Source of the DNA: Clostridia bacterium
GTDB taxonomy: Bacteria > Bacillota > Clostridia > Christensenellales > Borkfalkiaceae
Length of the DNA stretch: 54,807 bases
Reading direction: 5' to 3'
Assembly (NCBI GenBank): GCA_029059705.1
Contig: JAIDVM010000024.1
Location: 1-54,807, forward strand
Numbering within the stretch: the first letter of the stretch is position 1; the number at the start of each line of letters is the position of its first letter. Positions 37,534 through 50,461 of the stretch are shown here, in pieces. The translations under genes were made by a program, and so were the position numbers. The notes below the pieces were generated by a model that worked only from the letters and a program-made list of their open reading frames with translations, was not told where the DNA came from and did no database searches.

Positions 37534-37561
37534 TGTTTCTGCTTTGACTTTTAACTGCATA

Positions 37562-37590
37562 TTGACAAAATTGCCGAAATACGGTAGAAT
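37562..37590 (+). promoter_or_regulatory. Promoter of the small lipoprotein gene
   Basis: TTGACA (37562-37567), 17 bases, TAGAAT (37585-37590), 47 bases before the start codon. Confidence 0.7.
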
Positions 37591-37637
37591 TTGATTAAAG
37601 ATTTTACAAGAATTTTTTTTGTATGGGTGAGAAATAT

Positions 37638-38144
37638 ATGGCAAAAAAGATAGTTGGTTTTATAACAATAATCGGGGCAATAATAATGAGTTTATTTTGT
37701 TTGGCGGGTTGCAAGGTACCATACAACGCCGAAATAGTAAGTGACAGCTATAACTACTCTGGTGAATGGCTAAACGAGAATTTTGTAAAAAATAATTATA
37801 CTGCTTGGTCGAATCATGAAGGTGTATTAATAGATGGTTCGTTTCCAAAATCAAGAACATTCGTAATTAAAAGCGAAGAGGAAAAATGTAACATATTAAA
37901 CGGTGATTTTGACGTTGTGGTAAATTTTAAGCAAGAGATGCTTATAGTTTATACTTGGACTATAGATAATATTAGACCTTGTTATATTAAAAGCGTAAAA
38001 CTAATAGACGATGTTTTAAATATTAATTTCTATGTAGAACCTTTACCACTAGGTCATGGGGGCGCATGTATGCCTTATCAGCGTTGGTTTGTCATTAAGT
38101 TGGATTTATTGTCGATAACGTCTGTTGAAATTAAAGAATTATAA
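37638..38144 (+). CDS. Small uncharacterised lipoprotein
   Basis: 168 aa from the ATG at 37638 (GGGTGA ribosome site; an in-frame ATG lies at 37623 but has no ribosome site). Lipoprotein signal peptide with LAGC lipobox. The mature part is small, polar and beta-rich, with no recognised domain. It is AT-rich compared with the uxu operon and has its own consensus-like promoter. It ends at the bidirectional terminator next to the island remnant, and may be an accessory gene. Confidence 0.75.
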   Translation: MAKKIVGFITIIGAIIMSLFCLAGCKVPYNAEIVSDSYNYSGEWLNENFVKNNYTAWSNHEGVLIDGSFPKSRTFVIKSEEEKCNILNGDFDVVVNFKQEMLIVYTWTIDNIRPCYIKSVKLIDDVLNINFYVEPLPLGHGGACMPYQRWFVIKLDLLSITSVEIKEL

Positions 38145-38175
38145 AAATTACAATCATAAATGCAATATTAAAAAA

Positions 38176-38202
38176 GCGGTCTCAATGAGACCGCTTTTTT
38201 TA
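38176..38202. terminator. Bidirectional terminator, left copy
   Basis: GCGGTCTC-AAT-GAGACCGC with A-run before and T-run after. A related hairpin (GCGGTCT...AGACCGC) follows the intact GGGtGRT gene at 48668-48687; the pair belongs to the duplicated island ends. Confidence 0.9.
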
Positions 38203-38237
38203 TCGAATTAAATCAAAGCACAATATTCTGTGTTTTC

Positions 38238-38309
38238 TTATTTAGTCATTGCTTCCTGAACGGCAACCGCAACTGCAATCGTTGCGCCGACCATAGGGTT
38301 GTTGCCCAA
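38238..38309 (-). pseudogene. Remnant: last 24 codons of the GGGtGRT gene
   Basis: On the minus strand this reads LGNNPMVGATIAVAVAVQE-AMTK-stop, against GMGNNPMVGATVAVAVAVQE-GMTK-stop at the end of the intact gene (48733 onward). Homology stops abruptly at 38309. There is no upstream part of the gene here. It is the detached 3' end left by insertion of the island. Confidence 0.88.
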
Positions 38310-38449
38310 GAAATTTCGGGGGTTCAAATCGTCTTAATATGTATCAAGAAAGCTCAATTTTTTCGCAAAAAATGGCTTTAAGACGCGATAATGGGGCTGA
38401 AATTGTGCTAATCTGTATTTATCCATTTTTATATGTATTTGCGTACAAA

Positions 38450-38534
38450 GTTGAACTAATGTTGAACTGAGAGTCGTTTCAACCCTATGGTTTTTGCCGT
38501 TTTTCAGGTCTTATAAATCAACCCTATGGTTGGA
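38450..38534. repeat. Left end repeats of the island
   Basis: GTTGAACT (38450) and ATGTTGAACTG (38459) words, then CAACCCTATGGTT (38480-38492), then CAACCCTATGGTTGGA (38519-38534). The last is a perfect 16-bp match to 48446-48461. The block 38450-38492 aligns with 48607-48650. CAACCCTATGGT is the reverse complement of the target core ACCATAGGGTTG at 38290-38301. The rest of 38310-38690 shows no gene. Confidence 0.8.
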
Positions 38535-38696
38535 CAAAAATTCTTTCATTCTGATATTTACAGATTTATATAAATTAAGACAAATGGAAACACTTTAAAA
38601 CATCTAATAGAGTTGGCTTTTCTTATTTCTTATTCATTTATACAAAATCAGCAATATATCCAATATCTAAAATGAATATATAAATAATTACAAGTG

Positions 38697-38725
38697 TTGA
38701 CAAATTAAAAATTGTATGTTATAAT
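38697..38725 (+). promoter_or_regulatory. Consensus promoter of the pPIWI-RE operon
   Basis: TTGACA (38697-38702), 17 bases, TATAAT (38720-38725). A perfect consensus, so basal transcription should be strong. Confidence 0.85.
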
Positions 38726-38782
38726 TTGGACGTACTAGAGAAAATTTAATTAAAAAAGACCTAAGAAAAAATTTATTTATAT

Positions 38783-38813
38783 GGCGTCTCTTGTACAAAG
38801 AGATGCCTTTTTG
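38783..38813 (+). promoter_or_regulatory. Terminator-like hairpin in the pPIWI-RE leader (possible attenuator)
   Basis: Stem GGCGTCTCTT / AAGAGATGCC (one G-T pair) around GTAC, followed by TTTTTGTTT, between the consensus promoter and the ribosome site AAGGAG. It looks like an intrinsic terminator ahead of the coding region and could limit read-through into the operon. Confidence 0.6.
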
Positions 38814-38826
38814 TTTAAGGAGAAAA

Positions 38827-39969
38827 ATGGAAATTATACATTTGCGCAAAGCGTTCTGGTTTATTGCCAGAGGATTGATGGAAAAAGATAAGCTATTAAA
38901 ACAGAACCCTCATAGTTATCCGTACAGTATGAATTTGCAGCGTGGCATCAATATGTTTTTGGCGACAGCGATTGAAATCGGGGGAATGGGGGAAGATATA
39001 TTTGATTATTCCGACGAGAACGCTTTTTTATCGAAATTCATATTAAAGCCTGTTAACGAATGGTTTGACGGTTGGGATATTAAAGCGTGCGAAAAATTGA
39101 AATTGAGAGAGCAACCGTTTTATTTTTACGATGCGTTGTCGTATCGTAGAGGAAATGGGAGTGAGCTTTATGTGCCAAGTGAAGAGTGTATAGAGTTTTT
39201 AGAAACGCAGGAAAAAGGCAATGTCAACGAACCGAAAGACAGTATAATTGAAGAGACTGACGAGTACTCGTTGTATGAGCAGCTGAAAAGATTAAATCAG
39301 GATAATTATTGTAAGGTAAGAAAATTTGTAATAGAACACCCGATTATTGATGACGGTGTTTTGAGGGAAATACGATGCGATTTAGCCGATGTAACAGCCG
39401 CATACGCAATTACTTTGGCCTATGAACCTTTCGAAGAAAAAGCGTATTGTTGTCCTGTCTGCGGTTGGACGATGACGAAAGATGCGTACGGCTACATATG
39501 CATGTCAGACGATTGTTTAAAAAAGCGACCTTCTAAGGAATTAGACGGAACTAGTCGCTCAGTTTATAGATTAAAAAAAGGTATAATGAGGTATTTCGCC
39601 ATTCCGGGAAAATTGGAAATAGAAATTGCCTCTTTCTGTGAGAGAAACAATTTGGAGTATTCTCTGTGGCCATATATGGATAGATACGATATAGAAATTG
39701 TTTTTCCAGATAATTCTAAGTGGGAAGTTGACGCAAAGGCGTATAGTAACCCGATTTCTTTGCGAAGCAAAATTGAAAAAGACGGTGGCTTTCCATCCGG
39801 AGATTACCAAAAGGGTTTTTATGTGGTTCCAAACGAATGTAAGAGAAGAATCACAAATTATACAAATATAGTAAATAAATGCTTATCAGGACAAAAAAAC
39901 GTGATTTGCGTAACGTTAAGTAAAATTAAAGCTTTAATAAAAGCAAAATTGGGTGAATGCAATGAGTGA
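38827..39969 (+). CDS. pPIWI-RE-associated REase-type nuclease with zinc finger
   Basis: 380 aa from the ATG at 38827, 4 bases after AAGGAG. The N-terminal ~200 residues are helical and unrecognised. A Cys cluster follows (CCPVCGWTM...CMSDDC, about residues 208-232), probably zinc binding. Near the C-terminus Asp288 (YDIEIVFPD) and Asp302-Ala-Lys304 (EVDAK) fit a PD-(D/E)xK nuclease core. In pPIWI-RE three-gene islands a REase-fold protein accompanies the helicase and PIWI protein; position and motifs fit that role. It overlaps the helicase gene by 8 bases. Confidence 0.72.
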   Translation: MEIIHLRKAFWFIARGLMEKDKLLKQNPHSYPYSMNLQRGINMFLATAIEIGGMGEDIFDYSDENAFLSKFILKPVNEWFDGWDIKACEKLKLREQPFYFYDALSYRRGNGSELYVPSEECIEFLETQEKGNVNEPKDSIIEETDEYSLYEQLKRLNQDNYCKVRKFVIEHPIIDDGVLREIRCDLADVTAAYAITLAYEPFEEKAYCCPVCGWTMTKDAYGYICMSDDCLKKRPSKELDGTSRSVYRLKKGIMRYFAIPGKLEIEIASFCERNNLEYSLWPYMDRYDIEIVFPDNSKWEVDAKAYSNPISLRSKIEKDGGFPSGDYQKGFYVVPNECKRRITNYTNIVNKCLSGQKNVICVTLSKIKALIKAKLGECNE

Positions 39970-42900
39970 AAGAAACAACGAAACTTACTATGAACCATTA
40001 GCGGCAAGCTTTAGCAATATGGAAAACGCTATGTCTTTAAAGCGGTTTGCTTCAGTGGAAGCGGTGTTATATCTTTTAATGACTTTTTCTTCTGAACCAG
40101 ATCCAGGAAAAGCGTACCTATTGTTTACGGGTTATCATCTCATAAACATGAACCAAAGTGGTAAACAAGACTATATATTACAGTGTGCTCGTTTGACTTT
40201 GGGTTATTATAGATCAAAAAAGTTTTGGCAGGATGATTATAAAGAATACAAAGCGTCGCGATATAATGGCTTGCGGGCATTTGAATTTGAAACGCTTGAA
40301 GACGGTAAAATAATTTTACAGAAGGCTCCTGACGGTTATCCTTTTAAATTTGATGACCGCATGAAGGAATGGGAAAAATTTTGGCAGACTAATATTTTTG
40401 AAAACAAAAATTACCCTACAGCGGATGATGGGAAATTTACATATTATTTCGACAATAACGGAGGCAGGGAAAATTCCAAGAAAATGCAAGTAGAATTTTC
40501 TTGCAGATATAATTACGCAATTTCAGAAGAGTCTAAAAGCGGAAGAAACGGTAAGGCAGAACCTATTACTGTAACAATAGATGAGTTGCTCGACTGTGCT
40601 AAGGAAATGTCCGCGATCAATAAGGGTGACCACTGTTATGATGTTCTAAAAAGCAATGTAATTAAATCTGTAGATAATGGCGGTAAAGTTTTCGTTGCAA
40701 CGGAGTTAACAATACAAGAAGTTGTTAATATTGTAGGCATGGTTGGTTCGGGGAAATCCACGCTGATAAAAGTACTTGCGTTTTGGGCAAGCAAAAACGG
40801 GAAAAGAATAGTCATTGTTTTGGATACGGTTGTAGATGTATTCAATATGCAAAGTTACTTTGAAAACTTAAAAATTGACAGTTGTCCTTTAGTCGGTAGA
40901 AAAGAAAGGTTAAAATATATAAATCAGATTGTACGTGACGGACAAACTTGTTTGTCACGAGATGTATCGAAATACCTTACTAATGCGTGTGTAATTGATG
41001 GAATGAATGAAAGCGAGGATGCATGTGTTGTTTATGGTAAAGAGCCTTGTTATTCTCTTTATAAGAGCAACCGTGCTTATATATGTCCGCATTTCGATGT
41101 GTGCAATGGTACAAGAATGTTGCGTGAGTGCTACACAAAAAATGTCGTTCTTACTACTGTCGCAGGCTTTGCAATGACGAGAGTAGGTAAAAACAGAGAG
41201 GCGTTTTTCAACTGCGTGTTGGATTCTTTTGATATTGTAATCTTTGATGAAAGCGATAAGGTTCAAAAAACACTTGACAGATTGTTTATGCCAGATACGA
41301 GCTTTAACGCATATATCAATGAGTGCGCCAACGATTGCAGTTACTATATGCAATTATCGAGCATTGAACGAAACAAGAACCGCGCAAGATTACACTATGA
41401 TGAATTGCAAAGAAAGAGTGTATCGGTTTTAAATTGTCTAATATACGCATTAAAGCGGGATCTAGGTTCGTGGAACAAATTGGAGTTTGGTGACTGGTTT
41501 TCGGCAATGTCTCTGCTTGATGATTTGCAACAGGATAACAAGTATAAACTATCAAATGAACTTTATAATCGAATATATAGTTTAATGGATTATGATGAGG
41601 AAAAAAGCCTTGACAGAGAGCTACAAAATGTTATGAAAGTTTCGTGCGATAGCTCGGATTTTGATGTGTTTGATTCTCTGTATAATCAGTGGGTAAGTAA
41701 TAACAAAGATATTTTTGAACGTAAAGGGCAGGACAAGCGTACAGCGGAAATACAGGATAACAGAATAAAATTAATTTTGTGTTTGATTTATTTTGACAGT
41801 TTTGTGCGCAAAGCGAGCGATGCATATTGCGCTTCACACGAAACGTCATACGGGCAAAACGAACTGTTTGAATTTCTGCAATCAGGATTCAAAGAGCAAC
41901 AATGGGTTTTACCCTCTTCGCTCTGCGGGAACTTATTTGGTATTAAAAAGAGCAATGAAGACGATATTGTTTTGTTTAGACAATTTGCTTTCGGGCGAAG
42001 CCTTATGAAGGATTTGCCCTATTTGCGTTTGAATGAAGAGGGCAAACCTATTGGTCCGCATATAATAATGCTTTCTGGCTCAAGTTGGGCGGCAGGGTCT
42101 TATGAATATCATGTTACCCGCGCCGTCAACTATATTATAGAAGCGGATGTGAAGAAAAGAGAATTTTTGGCGAGAACAAAATTTTTTGAATCGGGATTTA
42201 TAGAAAGAGTATCTGGTGCGCCGAAAGATAAAAAAGCTGAAATGCTTAGAATTGTAACACAAAAATCTTCGGACAGCATAATAAACGAATTTTACAGAAA
42301 ACAAGGGAAGATTTTGCTTATAGTCAATAGCTACGATCAAGCCCGAATTGCACAAGAAGCGCTACAGTTTGAACTGTCAAAAAAATCTTGCGTAGCTAAA
42401 GTTTTTAGAATGGTGTCGGACTCTTATTCTAAAAAGCTTGACGAAAGCGTTATCCGTCGCGGTGAAATCGCTAAATTTGCTTTTATGGATGCCGACATAT
42501 TGATAGCCCCTGCGATTTCGATAGAACGAGGATACAATATTGTTGACGATAGCGGACACTCTGCTCTCGGTTCTGTTTTCTTTTTGGTTCGTCCAATGTC
42601 TGTTCCTGATGATATTCAGGATAAAGGCAGTAAACTTAATGGATACATGGAAGCGCATATGGAACGCCACGAAGGGGAATCTTTATGGAGCTACAATATG
42701 AGAATCAGGCAGGAAGCAATGATCTTTTGGTCTAAATTAACGGGGCATAAGGCGTATGGCTTGAGCGAATTGGATGAAGAGGAACAGAAGGATATTGTAT
42801 CAACATTGTTTGTATTGATTTTGCAGATATTTGGGCGATTAGCTCGCATTACAGATATGAATAAAATAGCTCCTAGAGTTTATTTTATGGACGGAGCATT

Positions 42901-43069
42901 TCGCAAGCCACAAACAGTAAACGGAGAATCAAGCGGATTTGATTGTTTGGATAGTTTGGGTAAATATCTTGATGAACTTTTTGAAGCTGAATCAAGTGCA
43001 GAAATTGCAAAAACATTATATGAGCCTTTCTATAAAGCATTTAAAGGAGGAATTAATTATGGCGGGTAA
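39962..43069 (+). CDS. DinG/XPD-like superfamily 2 helicase of the pPIWI-RE system
   Basis: 1035 aa from the ATG at 39962 (GGGTGA ribosome site); a GTG 9 bases earlier is an alternative. The N-terminal ~240 residues are a family-specific region. Walker A is GMVGSGKST near residue 260. A cysteine cluster typical of an Fe-S helicase domain lies between about 343 and 390 (C..., EPCYSL, ICPHFDVC). The DEAH-type box is IVIFDESD near 425. Motif VI is QIFGRLARITD near 957. DinG-type helicases are the standard partner of pPIWI-RE proteins. It overlaps the pPIWI-RE gene by 11 bases. Confidence 0.8.
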   Translation: MSERNNETYYEPLAASFSNMENAMSLKRFASVEAVLYLLMTFSSEPDPGKAYLLFTGYHLINMNQSGKQDYILQCARLTLGYYRSKKFWQDDYKEYKASRYNGLRAFEFETLEDGKIILQKAPDGYPFKFDDRMKEWEKFWQTNIFENKNYPTADDGKFTYYFDNNGGRENSKKMQVEFSCRYNYAISEESKSGRNGKAEPITVTIDELLDCAKEMSAINKGDHCYDVLKSNVIKSVDNGGKVFVATELTIQEVVNIVGMVGSGKSTLIKVLAFWASKNGKRIVIVLDTVVDVFNMQSYFENLKIDSCPLVGRKERLKYINQIVRDGQTCLSRDVSKYLTNACVIDGMNESEDACVVYGKEPCYSLYKSNRAYICPHFDVCNGTRMLRECYTKNVVLTTVAGFAMTRVGKNREAFFNCVLDSFDIVIFDESDKVQKTLDRLFMPDTSFNAYINECANDCSYYMQLSSIERNKNRARLHYDELQRKSVSVLNCLIYALKRDLGSWNKLEFGDWFSAMSLLDDLQQDNKYKLSNELYNRIYSLMDYDEEKSLDRELQNVMKVSCDSSDFDVFDSLYNQWVSNNKDIFERKGQDKRTAEIQDNRIKLILCLIYFDSFVRKASDAYCASHETSYGQNELFEFLQSGFKEQQWVLPSSLCGNLFGIKKSNEDDIVLFRQFAFGRSLMKDLPYLRLNEEGKPIGPHIIMLSGSSWAAGSYEYHVTRAVNYIIEADVKKREFLARTKFFESGFIERVSGAPKDKKAEMLRIVTQKSSDSIINEFYRKQGKILLIVNSYDQARIAQEALQFELSKKSCVAKVFRMVSDSYSKKLDESVIRRGEIAKFAFMDADILIAPAISIERGYNIVDDSGHSALGSVFFLVRPMSVPDDIQDKGSKLNGYMEAHMERHEGESLWSYNMRIRQEAMIFWSKLTGHKAYGLSELDEEEQKDIVSTLFVLILQIFGRLARITDMNKIAPRVYFMDGAFRKPQTVNGESSGFDCLDSLGKYLDELFEAESSAEIAKTLYEPFYKAFKGGINYGG

Positions 43070-45599
43070 ACCTATTTTTCCTATGGCGTTTACAATTAAC
43101 CCCAATCTTCAATGTAAAATATATTACGTCGGTTTTCCGTTGAAATGGAAGAACGAATTATTGCAAATCACAAAACTTAAGAAGGCAGACATTAAAAATG
43201 AATATGCACTTCCAACAAACACCTTAAAAAAAATGGTTAATTCGTGGATGGAAGGAATTGTTATGTTGCAGCCATTAAATAATGCATCAAATGATGAACG
43301 GTGGCTTTCTAGCTGTGTTCCGTTTGACGAGCAAAGGTTAAGCATCTTGTTTGGGATAATCAAAGTATGGATTACCGCAACTTATGTTTTTGATAAAAAA
43401 CTGCTGCCAAACATTATCGATAGCGCAAAAAAATTAATCAGCGAAATGGATATACAGGAACTGGTAGTATTATGTTCTCAAAGTAACGTTAAGCTGTCTG
43501 CTTTTGACGGTACTGTAAGTGACGAAGCCTATGACGCTTTGCCGTGGCTTGCCGCTAATCAGTTGATAGGCAAGAAAATACAATTAAAAGACACTATTCT
43601 TGAATTGCAATGTGTTGGTAAAAATGAGCTGATGAGCCAAGTGCTTATATGCGAGACTGGCAGATATTCTTATGTTTTTAAATTTACGGTACAAACTACT
43701 CCGCCGGAAAGAAGAGCGTTGCTTTTGTGTGACATGAGTATTCGCCGGTGGATTGATTCCCGTAAGACTGATGGTAACGAAAAAAAAGTTGACGTTTATC
43801 TTAATGAGAGCATTAATGCTTTCATTCTTGTGACAAAAAATAAGTATTTTAATGTGCCAATAGAATATAGCCGAATCAATAAATGTATAGATTGGAAACG
43901 GCAGGACAAAGATTGCTATAATTTGTATGGCTTCGAACAGTTGCCTGAAATATCCGATCTTTGGGATATGGTTGAAAGCGGTTCGCTAAAATATCTTTTA
44001 CCGTATAGTGTAAATGCATATTCTTTTGTCGAACCTAAAATCGGTACAGGTGTGCCCGTTTTTGATAAAGTGCCTGCGATTCATCAGATAGCTGAGCTTT
44101 TAAGCGATTATGCAGTAGAAGCTGAATGTGGTAACAGAGTAAACAAAAACCGTATATTCAGTAGCTTAGTGGGTGTAAAAGACGTATGTGGTTACGAAAG
44201 TAAAGAAGCTTTTAGAAAATGGGTATCATCATGTATTGAATCCGACAATATAAGGTTTGAAATATACGGTAATAAAGGGAATGAAACAGAAAGCTTTTAT
44301 ATTTCTAAGCTTGAAGAAAAAATTAGGGAAGATTTCGGGGTAGATCAAAGTAATTCTTGCTTAAACGTAAGTATAGAAATAAAAGATATTTCTGATATTG
44401 CAAATGCATTGACCGATTCAACTAAACAGGCACAGATAGATAAAAGCGATGGTGTTTTAAATATGCTTGGTAAAACGAACAAAGTAGTCGGATGCTTGTG
44501 TTTGATAAAGGATAAAAAAAGTTACAGATTGGGAAGATTCGATTTGGATCCGAAAAGTGCCGTTCGTAATGGGTTTGGTCGTTCAGGAAGAGTTGTACAA
44601 TTTGTCGTACCTGAAAAAATCGAGACTTATTCATCGGTAAGAAAACAGGAAAGAGCAGATAAAGCATTAAAAAACAAGATAGAAAAATCTGTTAACGACC
44701 TTTACAGACAGCTTGGCATTATTACTCTGTTAGACACCGCCAAAGTGAAGCCGGAAGCATTTATGGGCGTGGAAACTTGTGTGGGAATGAATGTGTTTAC
44801 GCAAGTTGAAGGGATTAACAATAAAGGCAGATTTTTACCGATCTTTGTATCGGTTGATTTGCAAAACGGGAAAACGCGCGTGTATTGTGATGCTTTTGAA
44901 GGAGGAAGCGTAAATTACAGAGAAGCTTGTTTTGAACTTGCCAATCTTTATTTTAAAACTAACCTTGAAGACCTATGTAAGAACGCATCTTTTTCTCCAG
45001 CAAAACAGAAATTAATAGAGTTAAAGAACAGGTATCAAGACGATACTAAAAAGTCTGCGCTGTTTATAGTTGCTGACGGAAATACAAGGTGGCTTTGGGA
45101 AGGCCTTTCGGATAAATGTATCAATAGCTACACATGCGATGCACAATATGTGCCAACTGAAATTAATGTAGGGACTAAAACAAACTCGTATAATATGTCA
45201 CTTAAAGGTAGTGGTATTCGAATTATTAGAATTCGTGGTAATTACGAAGTCCCCGATTATTATACTGCTACAAATGCAAAAAGTGAAGATTACTACGCTT
45301 CCACTGCAGGGCTCTTTAAATACGGACAAGTTTATTGGAATATAAATACTCCGCCTAATGAAGCAAAGTATGTGGGTAGTTTGAGAGATACTAAATCCCA
45401 AGCACCCCAAAGAGCTAACGCGCAGAAAGATATGGTGGAGATATATCCTTTACAATTGCAAATTGGTGACAATCCCGACGATTGGGTGCAATATGCTTCA
45501 GCTCTATGTGGTTTAGCAATACAATACGACCAAGCAACAAGATACCCGCTACCGTTACATTTAGCGGAAAATTTAAAGGAATATTTATTTAAAATATAA
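43059..45599 (+). CDS. pPIWI-RE family prokaryotic Argonaute-like protein
   Basis: 846 aa from the ATG at 43059 (AAAGGAGG, 8 bases upstream); the same frame is open from 42939 inside the helicase gene but that start has no ribosome site. The C-terminal third fits the RNase H-fold PIWI domain of the pPIWI-RE family: LFIVADGNTRWLW near 668, IRIIRIRGNYEVPDYY with Arg721/724/726 and Glu730, GLFKYGQVYWN near 751, then MVEIYP with Glu794, and a DQATRYPLPLHLA end. The family is named for conserved Arg and Glu residues. Members are predicted to bind guide/target nucleic acids in R-loop-type defence; catalytic competence is not evident. Confidence 0.82.
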   Translation: MAGKPIFPMAFTINPNLQCKIYYVGFPLKWKNELLQITKLKKADIKNEYALPTNTLKKMVNSWMEGIVMLQPLNNASNDERWLSSCVPFDEQRLSILFGIIKVWITATYVFDKKLLPNIIDSAKKLISEMDIQELVVLCSQSNVKLSAFDGTVSDEAYDALPWLAANQLIGKKIQLKDTILELQCVGKNELMSQVLICETGRYSYVFKFTVQTTPPERRALLLCDMSIRRWIDSRKTDGNEKKVDVYLNESINAFILVTKNKYFNVPIEYSRINKCIDWKRQDKDCYNLYGFEQLPEISDLWDMVESGSLKYLLPYSVNAYSFVEPKIGTGVPVFDKVPAIHQIAELLSDYAVEAECGNRVNKNRIFSSLVGVKDVCGYESKEAFRKWVSSCIESDNIRFEIYGNKGNETESFYISKLEEKIREDFGVDQSNSCLNVSIEIKDISDIANALTDSTKQAQIDKSDGVLNMLGKTNKVVGCLCLIKDKKSYRLGRFDLDPKSAVRNGFGRSGRVVQFVVPEKIETYSSVRKQERADKALKNKIEKSVNDLYRQLGIITLLDTAKVKPEAFMGVETCVGMNVFTQVEGINNKGRFLPIFVSVDLQNGKTRVYCDAFEGGSVNYREACFELANLYFKTNLEDLCKNASFSPAKQKLIELKNRYQDDTKKSALFIVADGNTRWLWEGLSDKCINSYTCDAQYVPTEINVGTKTNSYNMSLKGSGIRIIRIRGNYEVPDYYTATNAKSEDYYASTAGLFKYGQVYWNINTPPNEAKYVGSLRDTKSQAPQRANAQKDMVEIYPLQLQIGDNPDDWVQYASALCGLAIQYDQATRYPLPLHLAENLKEYLFKI

Positions 45600-45659
45600 T
45601 ATTGGGTCATTTTGGGAATACTAGCTATCATTTAAGTTTGCTAATATTTAAACATTATA

Positions 45660-45696
45660 TTGACAAAATTGCATATAAGTGCTAAAATAATAGCAC
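45660..45696 (+). promoter_or_regulatory. hipBA promoter with overlapping operator
   Basis: TTGACA (45660-45665), 17 bases, TAAAAT (45683-45688). An inverted repeat GTGCTA-AAATAA-TAGCAC (45679-45696) covers the -10 box and abuts the start codon at 45698; it is the likely HipB operator. The predicted transcript start is about 45695, so hipB would be nearly leaderless, and no ribosome site is present. Confidence 0.7.
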
Positions 45697-45697
45697 T

Positions 45698-45988
45698 ATG
45701 GAAAAGAAATTTGATATTGCGGATTTTGTTAAAACTCAAACAATACAATCTGTAACCGAGCAGCTTGTTGAAAGGGAAAAGTTACGGCGCAAAAAAATGC
45801 ACCTATCGCAAAGAGATTTAGCTAATAAATCTGGCATGAGCTATGCGTCTATTAGGCGGTTTGAAAATATAGGTGAAATTTCGCTTAATTCTCTTTTAAA
45901 AATTGCAAACGCACTTGATTGTTTGGAAGAGTTTAATTCGGTTTTTAAAATGCCCGTGGTAAAAAGTTTGAAGGACTATAAATTATGA
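45698..45988 (+). CDS. hipB: HipB-like antitoxin (XRE family)
   Basis: 96 aa. The helix-turn-helix spans about residues 35-80 (LSQRDLANKSGMSYASIRRFENIG). It neutralises HipA and represses its own operon through the operator overlapping the promoter. Its stop overlaps the hipA start (ATGA), the standard coupling for this toxin-antitoxin pair. The N-terminal ~30 residues (TQTIQSVTEQLVEREKLRRKK) are a helical extension. Confidence 0.88.
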   Translation: MEKKFDIADFVKTQTIQSVTEQLVEREKLRRKKMHLSQRDLANKSGMSYASIRRFENIGEISLNSLLKIANALDCLEEFNSVFKMPVVKSLKDYKL

Positions 45989-47079
45989 TTAAAGATATTA
46001 AAAAACTTGTAGTCAAGTATAATGGTATGACAGTTGGTTATCTTGCAGAACTTGACGGGAAGATAGGTTTTCAGTATGATGAAGATTGGATAGGTGGTGG
46101 TTTCAACATTTCACCGTTTTCGTTGCCACTTGAAAGAAAGATTTTTATTAATAAGAAAGATACGTTTGGTGGATTGTATGGCGTGTTTGCAGATTCACTT
46201 CCGGACGGGTGGGGAGAACTGCTTGTCCGTCGTATGCTTGCAAGGAAAGGAATAAATCCCGATAGACTTTCACCGCTTACTAAGCTTTCACTAATAAGCG
46301 GACAAGGGTTAGGCGGCTTAACTTATGTACCTAGCCAATCTGAAACTGACGACAATACTTTAATCGAATTAGATGCAATAGCTGAAGAAGTTAAGCATAT
46401 TTTAAACGATGAAACGGATAATCAAAGCTTAGATACTATTTATAAACTTGGTGGCTCAAGCGGTGGTGCAAGACCAAAGGCGCATATAAAAATAACCGGA
46501 GAAGATTGGATAGTAAAATTCCCCTGCCATTATGACCCGCAAAATATCGGAGAAAAAGAGTACAAGGCAAATATGCTTGCAAAAAAGTGCGGTTTAAACG
46601 TAAATGAGTGCAAGTTGTTTGACTCCAATATTTGTTCAGGATATTTTGGCGCAAAGCGATTTGATAGAGATAAGTATGGTAGAGTGCATATGATTTCGCT
46701 GTCATCGCTATTGGAAACTACGCATAGAATACCTAACCTTGATTATATTCATTTGCTACAGGTAGTGCAAAGAATTTGCGTTGATCAAAGTGATATGTAT
46801 GAAGCGTTTGGCAGGATGTGTTTTAATGTGTTATATGGCAACAAAGATGACCACGGCAAAAACTTTGCGTTCATTTACGATGAAGACAAGGGGGGATATG
46901 AGCTGTCACCGTTCTATGATATTACGCAGACTAAAGATAAACTCGAGCATGAAATGACTGTAAATGGCTTAGGCAATCCTACTGAAAAAGACCTATTGGA
47001 AGTTGCAAAAATAATGAAGCTTTCAATGCAAAAATGTAAAGAAATTATTGAACATATAAAAAAGGAACTATATTTATGA
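45985..47079 (+). CDS. hipA: HipA-like serine/threonine kinase toxin
   Basis: 364 aa, shorter than E. coli HipA (440 aa). The N-terminal subdomain is present (VGYLAELDGKIGFQYDEDW, GVFADSLPDGWGELL). The Gly/Ser-rich loop GGSSGGARPKAHI (about residue 155) holds the family's autophosphorylation Ser, followed by WIVKFP with the ATP-binding Lys, the catalytic segment YGNKDDHGKNFAF, and the metal-binding YDIT. E. coli HipA phosphorylates glutamyl-tRNA synthetase and causes dormancy; here the target is unknown. All core residues appear intact. It is coupled to the 54-aa ORF by an ATGA overlap. Confidence 0.9.
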   Translation: MIKDIKKLVVKYNGMTVGYLAELDGKIGFQYDEDWIGGGFNISPFSLPLERKIFINKKDTFGGLYGVFADSLPDGWGELLVRRMLARKGINPDRLSPLTKLSLISGQGLGGLTYVPSQSETDDNTLIELDAIAEEVKHILNDETDNQSLDTIYKLGGSSGGARPKAHIKITGEDWIVKFPCHYDPQNIGEKEYKANMLAKKCGLNVNECKLFDSNICSGYFGAKRFDRDKYGRVHMISLSSLLETTHRIPNLDYIHLLQVVQRICVDQSDMYEAFGRMCFNVLYGNKDDHGKNFAFIYDEDKGGYELSPFYDITQTKDKLEHEMTVNGLGNPTEKDLLEVAKIMKLSMQKCKEIIEHIKKELYL

Positions 47080-47265: not shown

Positions 47266-48444
47266 TTGAAGTTACTATTATTTTTCAGATGTACAGAACA
47301 AAAATATGCACGAAAATTTATTGAGTCTGGTAATTTGCGGTTTGGTACTCCAAACGAATGGATTAATGCTGCAAGGATAAATAATTTTGGTAGAGGTGAT
47401 GTTTTAGAAGGGACATGTATTGCAATTTCTAAGCAAGGAATTACAAAAGTTGAGCCTAGTTCAGAATTTATTGTTAGGGAAGACAAAGGCTTTTTCTTCT
47501 ATCAAAGAAAAGATGTTTTAGCATTAAGAACCTTCTGTTTGTTTGGTTTAACAGAGCTGAATTTTACAAAAACTACTAGAGCAACAAATAAGAAACTGGC
47601 GCCTTCGGGAGAGATAAATAACAGTTATTTTAAATCATTTTTCCCAGACATAGAGGCAACAACTTATGACCAGTTAGCTATAGGGCAAAAACCTACAGTA
47701 ATCGTAATAAATAATCCGGATTTGTTTTTAAAAAGAGTTAAAGATAAACTAATAAGCCTTGGATTTGGTGATGATGAAATAATTATGAGACATGTCCAGT
47801 ATGTAAACAAATATATTCAACATGAAATTAATGTACCTCACCCATATGAATTATTTTTTAAAGACCTATCTTACAGTAATCAATGCGAATTTCGCATAAT
47901 TATTAATTCTCAAAACAAGAAAGCAATAGAAAAGCTTGAACATCAAAATGGAATAATTGAAGTAGGTAATTTAAGTGATATTGCACAAACATATGACTAC
48001 TATTTTGATGATTTAAAATTTATGTTACATGATAATATGTTGGAGTTTTCACTGCCTAAAGCTACTACATACACACTTACTGATCCTATTGAGATGATGT
48101 GCTTAGTTCGTAAAGCACTTAGTGACGAGATGCTTGGTGAGGTTTCTTGGGAAGAGAATAAACGATTTATACATGAACGGTTAAAAGAGTTATGGGAAAA
48201 ACATAACATATCTTTTGACTGGTCAACTTTAAAATTTTACAACAAGAATAGCGAAGAGATTTTTGATGCAAGTGATGCTATTGATAATATTTGTAGCCAT
48301 GTAAATAGCTTTTTAGTTCAGGAAGAATATCAAAAAGCAATTGATTCTTGCAATTTAGCTATTAAACTTATGCCGTCGTCTACAAAAGGTTTTTTAAAAT
48401 TAGAAGAAGTCTATTCTTTTCTAAAAAAGCAAAAAGAATGTTAA
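47266..48444 (+). CDS. Uncharacterised island protein, DUF2971-like N-terminus and TPR-like C-terminus
   Basis: 392 aa with a TTG start 5 bases after AGAGGGG. The N-terminal pattern (YARKFIESGNLRFGTPNEWINAA, then a Cys/Leu-rich strand and CEFRIIIN near residue 205) weakly recalls DUF2971-type proteins found in accessory regions. The last ~70 residues look like a TPR helix pair (EEYQKAIDSCNLAIKLMPSSTKGF). There is no signal peptide or membrane helix. It is 25 bases after the 54-aa ORF, so it is probably in the hip operon, and it ends at the right-hand 16-bp repeat. A defence role is inferred only from location. Confidence 0.72.
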   Translation: MKLLLFFRCTEQKYARKFIESGNLRFGTPNEWINAARINNFGRGDVLEGTCIAISKQGITKVEPSSEFIVREDKGFFFYQRKDVLALRTFCLFGLTELNFTKTTRATNKKLAPSGEINNSYFKSFFPDIEATTYDQLAIGQKPTVIVINNPDLFLKRVKDKLISLGFGDDEIIMRHVQYVNKYIQHEINVPHPYELFFKDLSYSNQCEFRIIINSQNKKAIEKLEHQNGIIEVGNLSDIAQTYDYYFDDLKFMLHDNMLEFSLPKATTYTLTDPIEMMCLVRKALSDEMLGEVSWEENKRFIHERLKELWEKHNISFDWSTLKFYNKNSEEIFDASDAIDNICSHVNSFLVQEEYQKAIDSCNLAIKLMPSSTKGFLKLEEVYSFLKKQKEC

Positions 48445-48445
48445 G

Positions 48446-48659
48446 CAACCCTATGGTTGGATTTATTTTATTTGAGAAATCAAGAAATCACTAAATTTTA
48501 GTGCATAAACTGCTAATATATTAGCGCGGATGTTGAACTGGAGGTATCCAGTTCAACATTTGTTAAAAATTAACATAAAAAAGTCAGTTCAACATTGATA
48601 GATAATGTTGAACTGATGTTGTATTTAGCGGCTATTTCAACCTGATGGTTACCATAGGA
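48446..48659. repeat. Right end repeats of the island
   Basis: CAACCCTATGGTTGGA (48446-48461) begins 1 base after the last gene's stop and matches the left copy exactly. Two perfect inverted repeats built from one word follow: ATGTTGAACTGGA / TCCAGTTCAACAT (48530-48559) and CAGTTCAACATT / AATGTTGAACTG (48585-48615). Then CAACCTGATGGTTACCATAGG (48638-48658) forms a near palindrome and contains ACCATAGG. Nothing else is seen in this 288-base gap except the terminator. Confidence 0.8.
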
Positions 48660-48687: not shown

Positions 48688-48732
48688 TATATTTTGTGGT
48701 TATTTATACTAAAACACTACATATTGTGTTTC

Positions 48733-49734
48733 TTACTTCGTCATTCCCTCTTGTACGGCAACTGCAACGGCAACCGTCGCGCCGACCATAGGATTGTTGC
48801 CCATGCCGATTAAGCCCATCATTTCAACGTGTGCGGGAACGGAAGAAGAGCCTGCAAACTGCGCGTCGGAGTGCATTCTGCCCATCGTGTCGGTCATGCC
48901 ATAGGAGGAAGGGCCCGCAGCCATGTTGTCGGGGTGCAGGGTTCTGCCCGTGCCGCCGCCCGAAGCAACCGAGAAGTACTTAACGCCGTTTTCAACACAC
49001 CATTTTTTGTAGGTGCCTGCAACGGGGTGCTGGAAGCGGGTGGGGTTGGTGGAGTTGCCCGTAATCGAAACGGAAACGTGCTCCATTTTCATAATAGCAA
49101 CGCCTTCGGGAACATTATCCGCGCCGTAGCACTTAACCTTAGCTCTGGGGCCGTCGGAGAATGCAACGCTGTCGGTTACCTTAACCGTTTCGGTATAAGG
49201 GTCGAACTGCGTTCTGCAATACGTAAAGCCGTTAATTCTCGAAATTATATAAGCCGCGTCCTTGCCCAAGCCGTTTAAGATAACGCGCAAAGGTTTGGTG
49301 CGCACTTTGTTTGCGTTTTCGGCAATTTTAATTGCACCTTCGGCAGCCGCAAACGATTCGTGCCCCGCAAGGAAGCAGAAGCAGTCCGTTTCCTCCGAAA
49401 GGAGCATAGAACCGAGGTTGCCGTGACCTAAGCCTACTTGTCTGTTTTCCGCAACCGAACCGGGAATGCAGAAGCTCTGCAAGCCTATACCGATTTTCGT
49501 TGCCGCGTCGGCAGCCTTTTTGCAGCCGGACTTAACAGCAATCGCCGCGCCGACCGTATAAGCCCAAACGGCGTTTTCAAAGCAGATAGGCTGCGTGCCG
49601 CGCACGATTTTGTCTACGTCAATGCCCTTTTTAAGGGTAATTTCTTTACATTCTTCAATCGACTTAATGCCGTATTCCTTTAAAACGCCTAAAATTTTCT
49701 TTTCGCGTCTTTCATAGCTTTCAAAAAGTGCCAT
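48733..49734 (-). CDS. GGGtGRT family protein
   Basis: 333 aa from the ATG at 49734, 10 bases after AAGGAGG; an in-frame TTG at 49743 is too close to that site. It contains the family-naming GGGTGRT motif (VASGGGTGRTLHP), the Cys-containing stretch EETDCFCFLAGHE, and an Ala/Val-rich end (NNPMVGATVAVAVAVQE). It is a conserved protein of anaerobic Firmicutes of unknown biochemical role, almost always paired with the NifU-like gene upstream. The last 24 codons were probably supplied by the island, yet the reading frame is intact. Confidence 0.88.
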   Translation of the reverse strand: MALFESYERREKKILGVLKEYGIKSIEECKEITLKKGIDVDKIVRGTQPICFENAVWAYTVGAAIAVKSGCKKAADAATKIGIGLQSFCIPGSVAENRQVGLGHGNLGSMLLSEETDCFCFLAGHESFAAAEGAIKIAENANKVRTKPLRVILNGLGKDAAYIISRINGFTYCRTQFDPYTETVKVTDSVAFSDGPRAKVKCYGADNVPEGVAIMKMEHVSVSITGNSTNPTRFQHPVAGTYKKWCVENGVKYFSVASGGGTGRTLHPDNMAAGPSSYGMTDTMGRMHSDAQFAGSSSVPAHVEMMGLIGMGNNPMVGATVAVAVAVQEGMTK

Positions 49735-49735
49735 C

Positions 49736-50461
49736 TTAGTCAACCTCCTTGTCCGTTCTGGGGTCTATGTGCTTAACCGCGCCGGCTTCCTTGGAATATC
49801 TTCCGTAAGTGCCGATTGCCTTTTCATAAGCTTCGTTGGGAGTAAGACCTTTCTTTATAAAGTCGGTCATTTTTCCGAGGGATACGAATTTGTAACCGCA
49901 AATTTCGTTGTTTTTGTCAAGCGCAAGCGCAATAACGTAGCCTTCCGCCATTTCGAGGTACCTTGCGCCTTTAAGCTTGGTGCCGTACATGGTGCCCACC
50001 TGCGAGCGTAAGCCCTTGCCCAAATCTTCGAGCCCCGCGCCGATGGTTAAACCGTCTTCGGAGAACGCCGACTGCGTTCTGCCGTAAACAATCTGTAAAA
50101 ACAGTTCGCGCATGGCGGTGTTGATTGCGTCGCAAACAAGGTCGGTGTTTAAAGCTTCCAAAATGGTTTTGCCGGGGAGAATTTCCGCCGCCATAGCCGC
50201 CGAGTGCGTCATGCCCGAGCAGCCGATGGTTTCAACCAGCGCCTCTTCGATAACGCCGTCTTTAACGTTAAGCGAAAGCTTGCATGCGCCCTGTTGGGGT
50301 GCGCACCAGCCTATGCCGTGCGTAAAGCCCTTAATGTCCTTGATTTCCTTTGCCTGAACCCAAAGCCCTTCTTCGGGAATGGGAGCGGGGCCGTGTTCGA
50401 ATCTGCCCGAAACGCCCTTGGCAACGCAAATCATATTTTCAATGTCTTTTGAATATTGCAT
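49736..50461 (-). CDS. NifU-like iron-sulfur scaffold-related protein
   Basis: 241 aa from the ATG at 50461, preceded by GGAGGA. Cysteines occur in GWCAPQQGAC and ETIGCSGMTHSAA, which resemble NifU/IscU N-terminal scaffold motifs. The rest (YGRTQSAFSEDGL, GTYGRYSKEAG) is specific to the family that accompanies GGGtGRT. The two genes are directly coupled (stop and ATG nearly touching). A joint role in Fe-S or selenium/sulfur chemistry is a plausible inference, not established. Confidence 0.83.
   Translation of the reverse strand: MQYSKDIENMICVAKGVSGRFEHGPAPIPEEGLWVQAKEIKDIKGFTHGIGWCAPQQGACKLSLNVKDGVIEEALVETIGCSGMTHSAAMAAEILPGKTILEALNTDLVCDAINTAMRELFLQIVYGRTQSAFSEDGLTIGAGLEDLGKGLRSQVGTMYGTKLKGARYLEMAEGYVIALALDKNNEICGYKFVSLGKMTDFIKKGLTPNEAYEKAIGTYGRYSKEAGAVKHIDPRTDKEVD

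Follow-up and report, generated by a model that had tools for sequence, protein, structure and literature searches.

A predicted attenuator-like leader precedes a pPIWI-RE operon carried in an integrase-less island of a Clostridia bacterium

The pPIWI-RE family was predicted in 2013 by Burroughs, Iyer and Aravind (PMC3702460), who described a patchily spread island of three overlapping genes encoding, in this order, a REase protein (Y region, zinc ribbon and REase, in some operons with a helix-turn-helix (HTH) fusion), a DinG-type helicase with a Z domain, and a PIWI protein (X, MID and RNase H domains) with the Arg and Glu residues (R and E) of the family name. Its role in defence is a prediction from comparative genomics (PMC3702460). 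One biochemical study of the family was found among the literature matches listed, that of PsPIWI-RE of Pseudomonas stutzeri, which is also encoded beside genes for a DinG helicase and a nuclease and possesses two catalytic Asp residues as well as R and E; the part of that paper available (PMC10991935) deals with a cell-division/ciprofloxacin phenotype, not with phage defence, and reports no leader RNA. Here we describe a pPIWI-RE operon of a Clostridia bacterium, at positions 38827-45599 of contig JAIDVM010000024.1 (assembly GCA_029059705.1), whose 54,807 nt, read on the forward strand, are referred to below as the window. We consider it probable that this three-gene system belongs to the subgroup with retained RNase H aspartates, that its expression is held by an attenuator, and that it is carried as cargo of an island without an integrase. 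The leader in question may bear on how a pPIWI-RE system is restrained from damaging its own host and on the origin of its guides.

In the attenuation of pyrG in Bacillus subtilis it is the 5' terminus of the transcript that prevents termination, an added run of G residues pairing with one arm of the terminator. The accessible text of PMC4448216 describes this prevention as the result of reiterative G addition. The closest measured precedent for the leader described here is abiF of Clostridioides difficile: according to the available part of PMC12373285, a sigma-A promoter drives the RNA RCd22, most of which terminates ahead of abiF (with mapped 3' ends) and which binds the protein. AbiF-RCd22 and the type III toxin-antitoxin loci share with our locus, as predicted for it, a sigma-A promoter, a non-coding RNA (of roughly 100 nt in those loci), an intrinsic terminator, a Shine-Dalgarno sequence and a defence gene, with read-through serving as mRNA; they differ in that the protein belongs to another family and the RNA contains two abiF motifs or tandem repeats, and pairing of the 5' end with the terminator is not described in that part of the source.

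The leader and the operon of the window consist of the following features:

38697..38725, plus strand: sigma-A type promoter TTGACA-17-TATAAT (12/12 match; TG precedes the second hexamer)
38732..38741, plus strand: GUACUAGAGA, at which the leader RNA is predicted to start, serving as first antiterminator strand, six bases after the -10 hexamer (9/10 pairs with 38787-38796)
38783..38816, plus strand: predicted intrinsic terminator, a 10-pair hairpin (38783-38807) and then a T tract, TTTTTGTTT, before the Shine-Dalgarno sequence (hairpin scan and folding)
38827..39969, plus strand: REase protein of 380 aa with a possible Y-like region, a zinc ribbon and a PD-(D/E)xK nuclease; ATG after AAGGAG (Pfam PF18154, 2.8e-21; PprRE, 6.2e-23)
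39962..43069, plus strand: DinG-type superfamily 2 (SF2) helicase of 1035 aa with an N-terminal Z domain (PprDinG, 1.2e-95; PF18155, 1.2e-12)
43059..45599, plus strand: pPIWI-RE protein of 846 aa (X, MID, RNase H); ATG after AAAGGAGG (PprPIWI, 9.5e-90)

Most of what the original prediction had read from this DNA was borne out. The open reading frames (ORFs), taken from an ORF list and the sequence, lie and overlap as predicted, and the region is AT-rich (35-38% G+C, against mostly 43-52%, and 40% at the lowest, in the rest of the contig). The nuclease with a zinc finger is supported by the REase profile and four invariant Cys, and the DinG-type helicase with a Cys cluster by PprDinG, a Walker A motif and four invariant Cys, with no sign of another superfamily; the 846-aa protein matches the pPIWI-RE models and carries the expected Arg and Glu at positions invariant in 12/12 proteins. 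The genes had also been called intact, and all three retain their ORFs, domains and motif positions. As to the perfect consensus promoter, the 12/12 match stands, but the claim was incomplete: the predicted terminator, overlooked at the time, is situated between this promoter and the REase ATG. Since it separates the promoter from the genes, expression of the operon is probably conditional.

Judged by its profile matches, the operon is an intact three-gene pPIWI-RE system and a new member of the family, and its genes follow the canonical order of REase, DinG helicase and pPIWI-RE, neighbours overlapping at their ends. It differs from the published island in that the REase of the window has no HTH fusion and in the conserved leader with a predicted promoter-proximal terminator, which the main text of PMC3702460 does not mention. 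The pPIWI-RE protein matches pPIWI_RE_X (PF13111, 1.3e-30), MID (PF18157, 1.6e-14) and RNaseH_pPIWI_RE (PF13032, 9.7e-27). All REase, Z, X, MID and RNaseH matches exceed the Pfam cut-offs; pPIWI_RE_Y reaches 18.4 bits on the REase protein (cut-off 26.7). The PADLOC profiles span nearly the whole helicase and pPIWI-RE queries (PprDinG, residues 37-1030 of a 1038-residue ORF; PprPIWI, residues 48-884 of an 886-residue ORF) and residues 124-384 of the 392-residue REase ORF, and in NCBIfam the REase and pPIWI-RE proteins had no match at E up to 1. An alternative helicase start is a GTG at 39953.

Residues at the motif and family-defining positions are present. E264, D288, D302xK304 and Cys 209, 212, 225 and 230 of the REase (motif roles assigned by eye) are invariant in 5/5 aligned proteins, as are the Walker A motif, the FDE(S/C)D box and Cys 343, 363, 375 and 381 of the helicase, while R677, R724, R726, E730 and E794 of the pPIWI-RE protein are invariant in all 12 aligned. 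The RNase H aspartates, D600 and D673 in the window protein, are kept in seven of these 12 (window, L081, G1014, G897, G053, G082 and G070); the alignment, read by eye, has no Asp in these columns in the other five (G567 and four proteins of cyanobacterial plasmids). According to the accessible part of PMC10991935, mutation of D525 or D610 of PsPIWI-RE abolishes cleavage. Likened without direct alignment, D600 and D673 would be the equivalents of these two residues, and one pair among the invariant Arg and Glu (R724/R726 with E794, also R677 and E730) would, from order and spacing, correspond to R639/E718 of PsPIWI-RE. Searched against PDB by sequence, the PIWI protein of the window had no match and its helicase only weak ones, to P-loop proteins; an AlphaFold model of the window and L081 PIWI proteins (pLDDT 32, pTM 0.30) was not used.

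Promoter, leader and predicted terminator precede the REase start in all seven of the operons found that have the RNase H aspartates. The leaders form two sequence groups, A (window, L081, G1014 and G897) and B (G053, G082 and G070), and share one geometry: the -10 hexamer and the hairpin lie 57-128 nt apart, a T tract comes next, and the REase ATG follows after another 19-60 nt. A fixed scan, which asked for a promoter matching at 10/12 or more, a hairpin with 8 pairs or more, a T-rich tail ending at most 70 nt from any start in the first 26 codons and a promoter-hairpin gap of 20-180 nt, recovered six of the seven REase genes as compared with two of the 426 remaining uncurated ORFs (120 aa or longer) of the loci retrieved (Fisher, 2.2e-11); the 426 include the REase ORFs of five relatives that lack the leader. 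One of the two background matches (L058) overlaps, on the opposite strand, the GGGtGRT gene discussed below. A pattern for the group A leader was found in 3/391 genomes of the class and one for group B in 3/93 genomes of the genus, in each case before a pPIWI-RE operon and nowhere else; as both patterns were derived from these leaders, their recovery is by construction and only the absence elsewhere is informative. Reversed control patterns had no match in the same 391 class and 93 genus genomes, and the group A pattern had none in viral contigs. No report of a pPIWI-RE leader was found among the matches listed in a literature search that left out preprints and most subscription journals.

The 5' end of the leader is predicted to pair with the terminator. 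In all seven leaders the predicted first transcribed base, placed six bases after the -10 hexamer, opens a stretch complementary to the terminator: GUACnnGAGA, complementary to UCUCUUGUAC, in group A, and GUCC or GUCU ... AAACAC, complementary to GUGUUU ... GGAC, in group B. Ranked by duplex energy, no 16-nt window pairs better than the 5' region in 6/7 leaders, and the energy of this region was matched by 31, 17, 6, 9, 11, 24 and 7 of 1000 shuffles (for the window, L081, G1014, G897, G053, G082 and G070, respectively). When the RNA is folded from +1 but cut before the 3' arm of the terminator, base pairs form between the 5' end and the loop/arm in 7/7, with 5.6-8.9 expected 5'-end pairs, a value reached in the same order by 1/400, 0/400, 0/400, 0/400, 3/250, 14/250 and 5/250 shuffles; the full-length leader folds into the terminator. 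In group B a further helix of the cut RNA occupies the 5' arm of the terminator, its sequence differing in G082. Such alternative folds of the cut and the complete RNA are, at the level of predicted structure, the signature of competing structures. The window leader is also more stable than its shuffles (z -2.14; 3/200 as good).

Sequence variation points the same way. The four outer pairs of the group A hairpin occur as 4, 1, 4 and 3 pair types in the four sequences, and the 5' arm UCUCUU together with the loop start GUAC (UCUCUUGUAC) is fixed though the opposite arm differs in two of the four. The predicted transcripts begin with GUAC or GUC(C/U) in 7/7 and have no G run, which sets them apart from reiterative attenuation of the pyrG type: stuttering on a G run supplies the antiterminator in pyrG, whereas in these leaders it would be encoded. 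Nor did Rfam, at its gathering score, find any riboswitch, T-box or other known leader in the window or in loci L078, L079, L080 and L081.

A promoter and, upstream of the first gene, an antiterminator and a terminator predicted to exclude each other make up the layout of an attenuator, and attenuation is the best-supported mechanism for the leader. We infer that the hairpin terminates transcription in the cell and that the balance between antiterminator and terminator answers to a signal. From the strong consensus promoter, which would always fire, transcription would yield either a short RNA or the mRNA of the operon, as decided by the leader. The first 10-16 nt of the leader may pair with the loop and one arm of the terminator that precedes the Shine-Dalgarno sequence; should the 5' end capture this strand first, no terminator would form and the operon would be transcribed, and should it be occupied or too slow, transcription would stop and an RNA of about 76-84 nt would be released (76-152 nt, as predicted, across the operons). 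The deciding strand would thus be the RNA 5' terminus, and candidate signals or occupants are polymerase speed or the supply of nucleoside triphosphates, an RNA acting in trans, or the PIWI-RE protein, whose family, by analogy, grips the 5' ends of guides. The proteins might then act after the model of Burroughs et al. (PMC3702460), restricting transcribing invaders through DNA-RNA hybrids: PIWI-RE would sense the hybrid, DinG would open it or translocate, and the REase would cut. A leader before operons with the nuclease residues points to RNA-based control; it also provides a defined RNA of 76-152 nt to look for and a sequence signature for finding further copies.

Several observations, besides the circular recovery of the two patterns, weigh against this reading. 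Terminator-like sites are not rare in the region (19 observed, 6.4 expected). The L081 leader, with one mismatch and a shorter T run, was missed by the fixed scan. In the G897 leader the pairing of the 5' end is slightly surpassed by that of an internal window, and the 5' window with the best pairing begins, in L081, G1014 and G897, a few bases upstream of the predicted +1. In group B the partner of the 5' end is the loop together with the 3' arm; this arm is synthesised late, and an antiterminator of this kind is less usual. The seven leaders belong to two sequence groups (4 + 3), and therefore represent few independent events. Finally, the layout was seen in none of the five aligned relatives without the aspartates, G567 and the four cyanobacterial plasmid operons (upstream regions examined by eye). 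The presence of the leader thus appears to go with the RNase H aspartates (7/7 vs 0/5), an association confounded by kinship.

Among the other explanations, the one that survives best, although we regard it as unlikely, is that the leader is mainly a small RNA acting in trans, bound by the pPIWI-RE complex in a guide-like, inhibitory or antitoxin-like manner, and that the terminator sets the ratio of this RNA to mRNA. Its layout is that of RCd22-abiF and ToxIN, as far as the available part of PMC12373285 describes them, and PsPIWI-RE cleaves DNA with RNA guides of at least 10 nt carrying 5'-P or 5'-OH (PMC10991935, accessible part). The conserved part of the leader is the RNA 5' end, which a PIWI MID pocket would hold by analogy, and the restriction to operons with the aspartates, with its bias of kinship, would fit as well. 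Against this stand the middle of the leader, variable in both length and sequence, and the lack at 38690-38830 of tandem repeats as in type III antitoxin RNA; three genes lie downstream.

Attenuation and binding by the protein could also be combined, in a scheme that we put forward as a tentative and rather doubtful extension by analogy. Nuclease-competent pPIWI-RE systems would be ribonucleoprotein systems in which PIWI-RE binds the 5' terminus of the leader; the same terminus being the antiterminator, the complex would sense its own level, or the loss of RNA upon infection, and shut off or release its own operon. Such self-sensing would be a PIWI counterpart of AbiF-RCd22 and of the regulatory circuit of Cas9 with its long tracrRNA.

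It is very unlikely that the complementary blocks are a DNA operator, i.e. an inverted repeat for a repressor, beside which the hairpin is incidental. Blocks at +1 and some 55-130 bp downstream are spaced suitably for a looping repressor, and these REase genes do not have the HTH fusion known in some relatives (PMC3702460), with which a MerR annotation in L094 is consistent; however, the downstream block is inside a hairpin with covarying outer pairs, followed by a T tract, which indicates a constraint on RNA. The reading of an ordinary pPIWI-RE operon with a leftover terminator of the upstream gene, without a role, draws on the abundance of terminator-like sites in the region but is disfavoured and very unlikely, because at 38167-38203, 580 bp ahead of the leader hairpin, the upstream gene (ending at 38144) already has an inverted repeat and a T tract to itself, and because the layout recurs in seven operons of at least three families and a Lachnospiraceae metagenome-assembled genome (MAG) with differing upstream genes.

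Relatives of the PIWI-RE protein are sparse: with the genome of the window counted each time, they occur in 4/93 genomes of the genus, 1/396 of the order, 2/398 of the phylum and 4/391 of the class, and one further locus was found in general genome contigs, in the Lachnospiraceae MAG (44% identity in the best segment). The proteins of three congeners are 28-30% identical to that of the window, which speaks for separate acquisition. Searches with the window PIWI in phages, viral contigs and plasmids, the viral scans A2 and A3, and a plasmid search with the L080 PIWI found none; a plasmid search with the G567 PIWI gave seven records, and the four examined are all cyanobacterial. Family searches centred on G1014 and G897 added no further operon (1/58 and 1/4). 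A divergent relative in G993 (907 aa; L092:5613-12906) lies by proteins of 961 and 397 aa, possibly another pPIWI-RE arrangement, and in its upstream region the leader layout was not seen by eye. In G053 (L078:5507-7866) and G082 (L079:5383-7794) two extra genes on the minus strand follow the operon, one for a helicase-like protein of about 610 aa (GSGKTT) and one for an exonuclease-like protein of about 182 aa (beginning VVIDTETTW), as judged by eye; this may be a five-gene variant.

The operon is part of a larger island at the 3' end of the GGGtGRT gene. The features of this island are:

38234..38308, minus strand: left repeat copy, duplicating the final 75 nt of the GGGtGRT gene; attL-like, left over from where the gene originally ended, reading FLGNNPMVGATIAVAVAVQEAMTK* (85% identity to 48729-48803)
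38450..38469, no strand: arm-like repeats TTGAACT, left island end (string search)
38519..38532, plus strand: left inner core CAACCCTATGGTTG, cargo boundary (core pattern; G053 left-end homology stops 9 nt beyond)
45698..45988, plus strand: HipB-like HTH protein, cargo (PF01381, 1.1e-09), with a separate promoter (11/12) at 45660-45688
45985..47079, plus strand: HipA-like protein, cargo (PF07804, 2.7e-44; PF13657, 1.5e-15)
47266..48444, plus strand: cargo protein of 392 aa without a family match (Pfam, PADLOC and NCBIfam, none at E<1e-3)
48446..48459, plus strand: right inner core CAACCCTATGGTTG, cargo boundary (core pattern and homology ends)
48531..48616, no strand: arm-like repeats TGTTGAACT / AGTTCAACA, right island end (repeat search)
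48729..48803, minus strand: right repeat copy, the 3' end of the intact GGGtGRT gene at 48733-49743 (75-nt direct repeat; PF14057, 8.1e-193)

From this arrangement we read the operon, the HipBA pair and the 47266-48444 gene as cargo at the GGGtGRT 3' end, moved by an integrase in trans or by one since lost; no integrase gene was seen in the island of the window (ORFs; Pfam, PADLOC and NCBIfam profiles). TTGAACT arm repeats are present at both ends of the island, and 38447-38492 shares 91% identity with the right-hand end of the G046 element, which carries an integrase-like gene. The left end is similar to G053 (79% over 336 nt, stopping 9 nt past the left inner core). On the right, there is similarity to G053 (75% over 385 nt) and to G009 (74% over 377 nt), in both cases stopping within 9 nt of the right inner core. 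G009 continues past the core with a different ORF; the contigs of G053 end 33 and 47 nt further, so that G053 says little about its cargo. The GGGtGRT gene end is duplicated in nine of 37 same-genus genomes examined, that of the window included, and G046 and G004 carry at this site a protein of 433-435 aa which blastp relates to PF00589-matching tyrosine recombinases encoded in the genome of the window.

That genome encodes six tyrosine recombinases. Compared with the 433-aa G046 protein, two are 23-25% identical over 351-365 residues, one is 42% identical over 65, and three have no match at 1e-5. Two of the six (contigs C4 and C10; L073 and L074) are 71-73% identical over 294-295 residues to a 300-aa recombinase situated immediately within the left end (L067) of the G020 island, which occupies the GGGtGRT site as well; the upstream DNA of these two has no similarity to the G020 island end, and their contig stretches contain no core site. 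That these two act in trans as movers of the island is possible but unsupported.

A few further observations concern the island and its surroundings. Several assemblies break near the GGGtGRT site (loci L061, L065, L069, L053 and L062 were compared). Towards its C terminus the 47266-48444 protein gives a weak tetratricopeptide repeat (TPR) signal. What looks like a close homologue of the window HipBA (45698-47079) is present in G082 (L079:1-859), about 7 kb from the pPIWI-RE gene. The promoter region of the hypothetical gene 37623-38144 (37549-37574, outside the island) resembles that of hipB (45647-45672) over 26 nt, at 85%.

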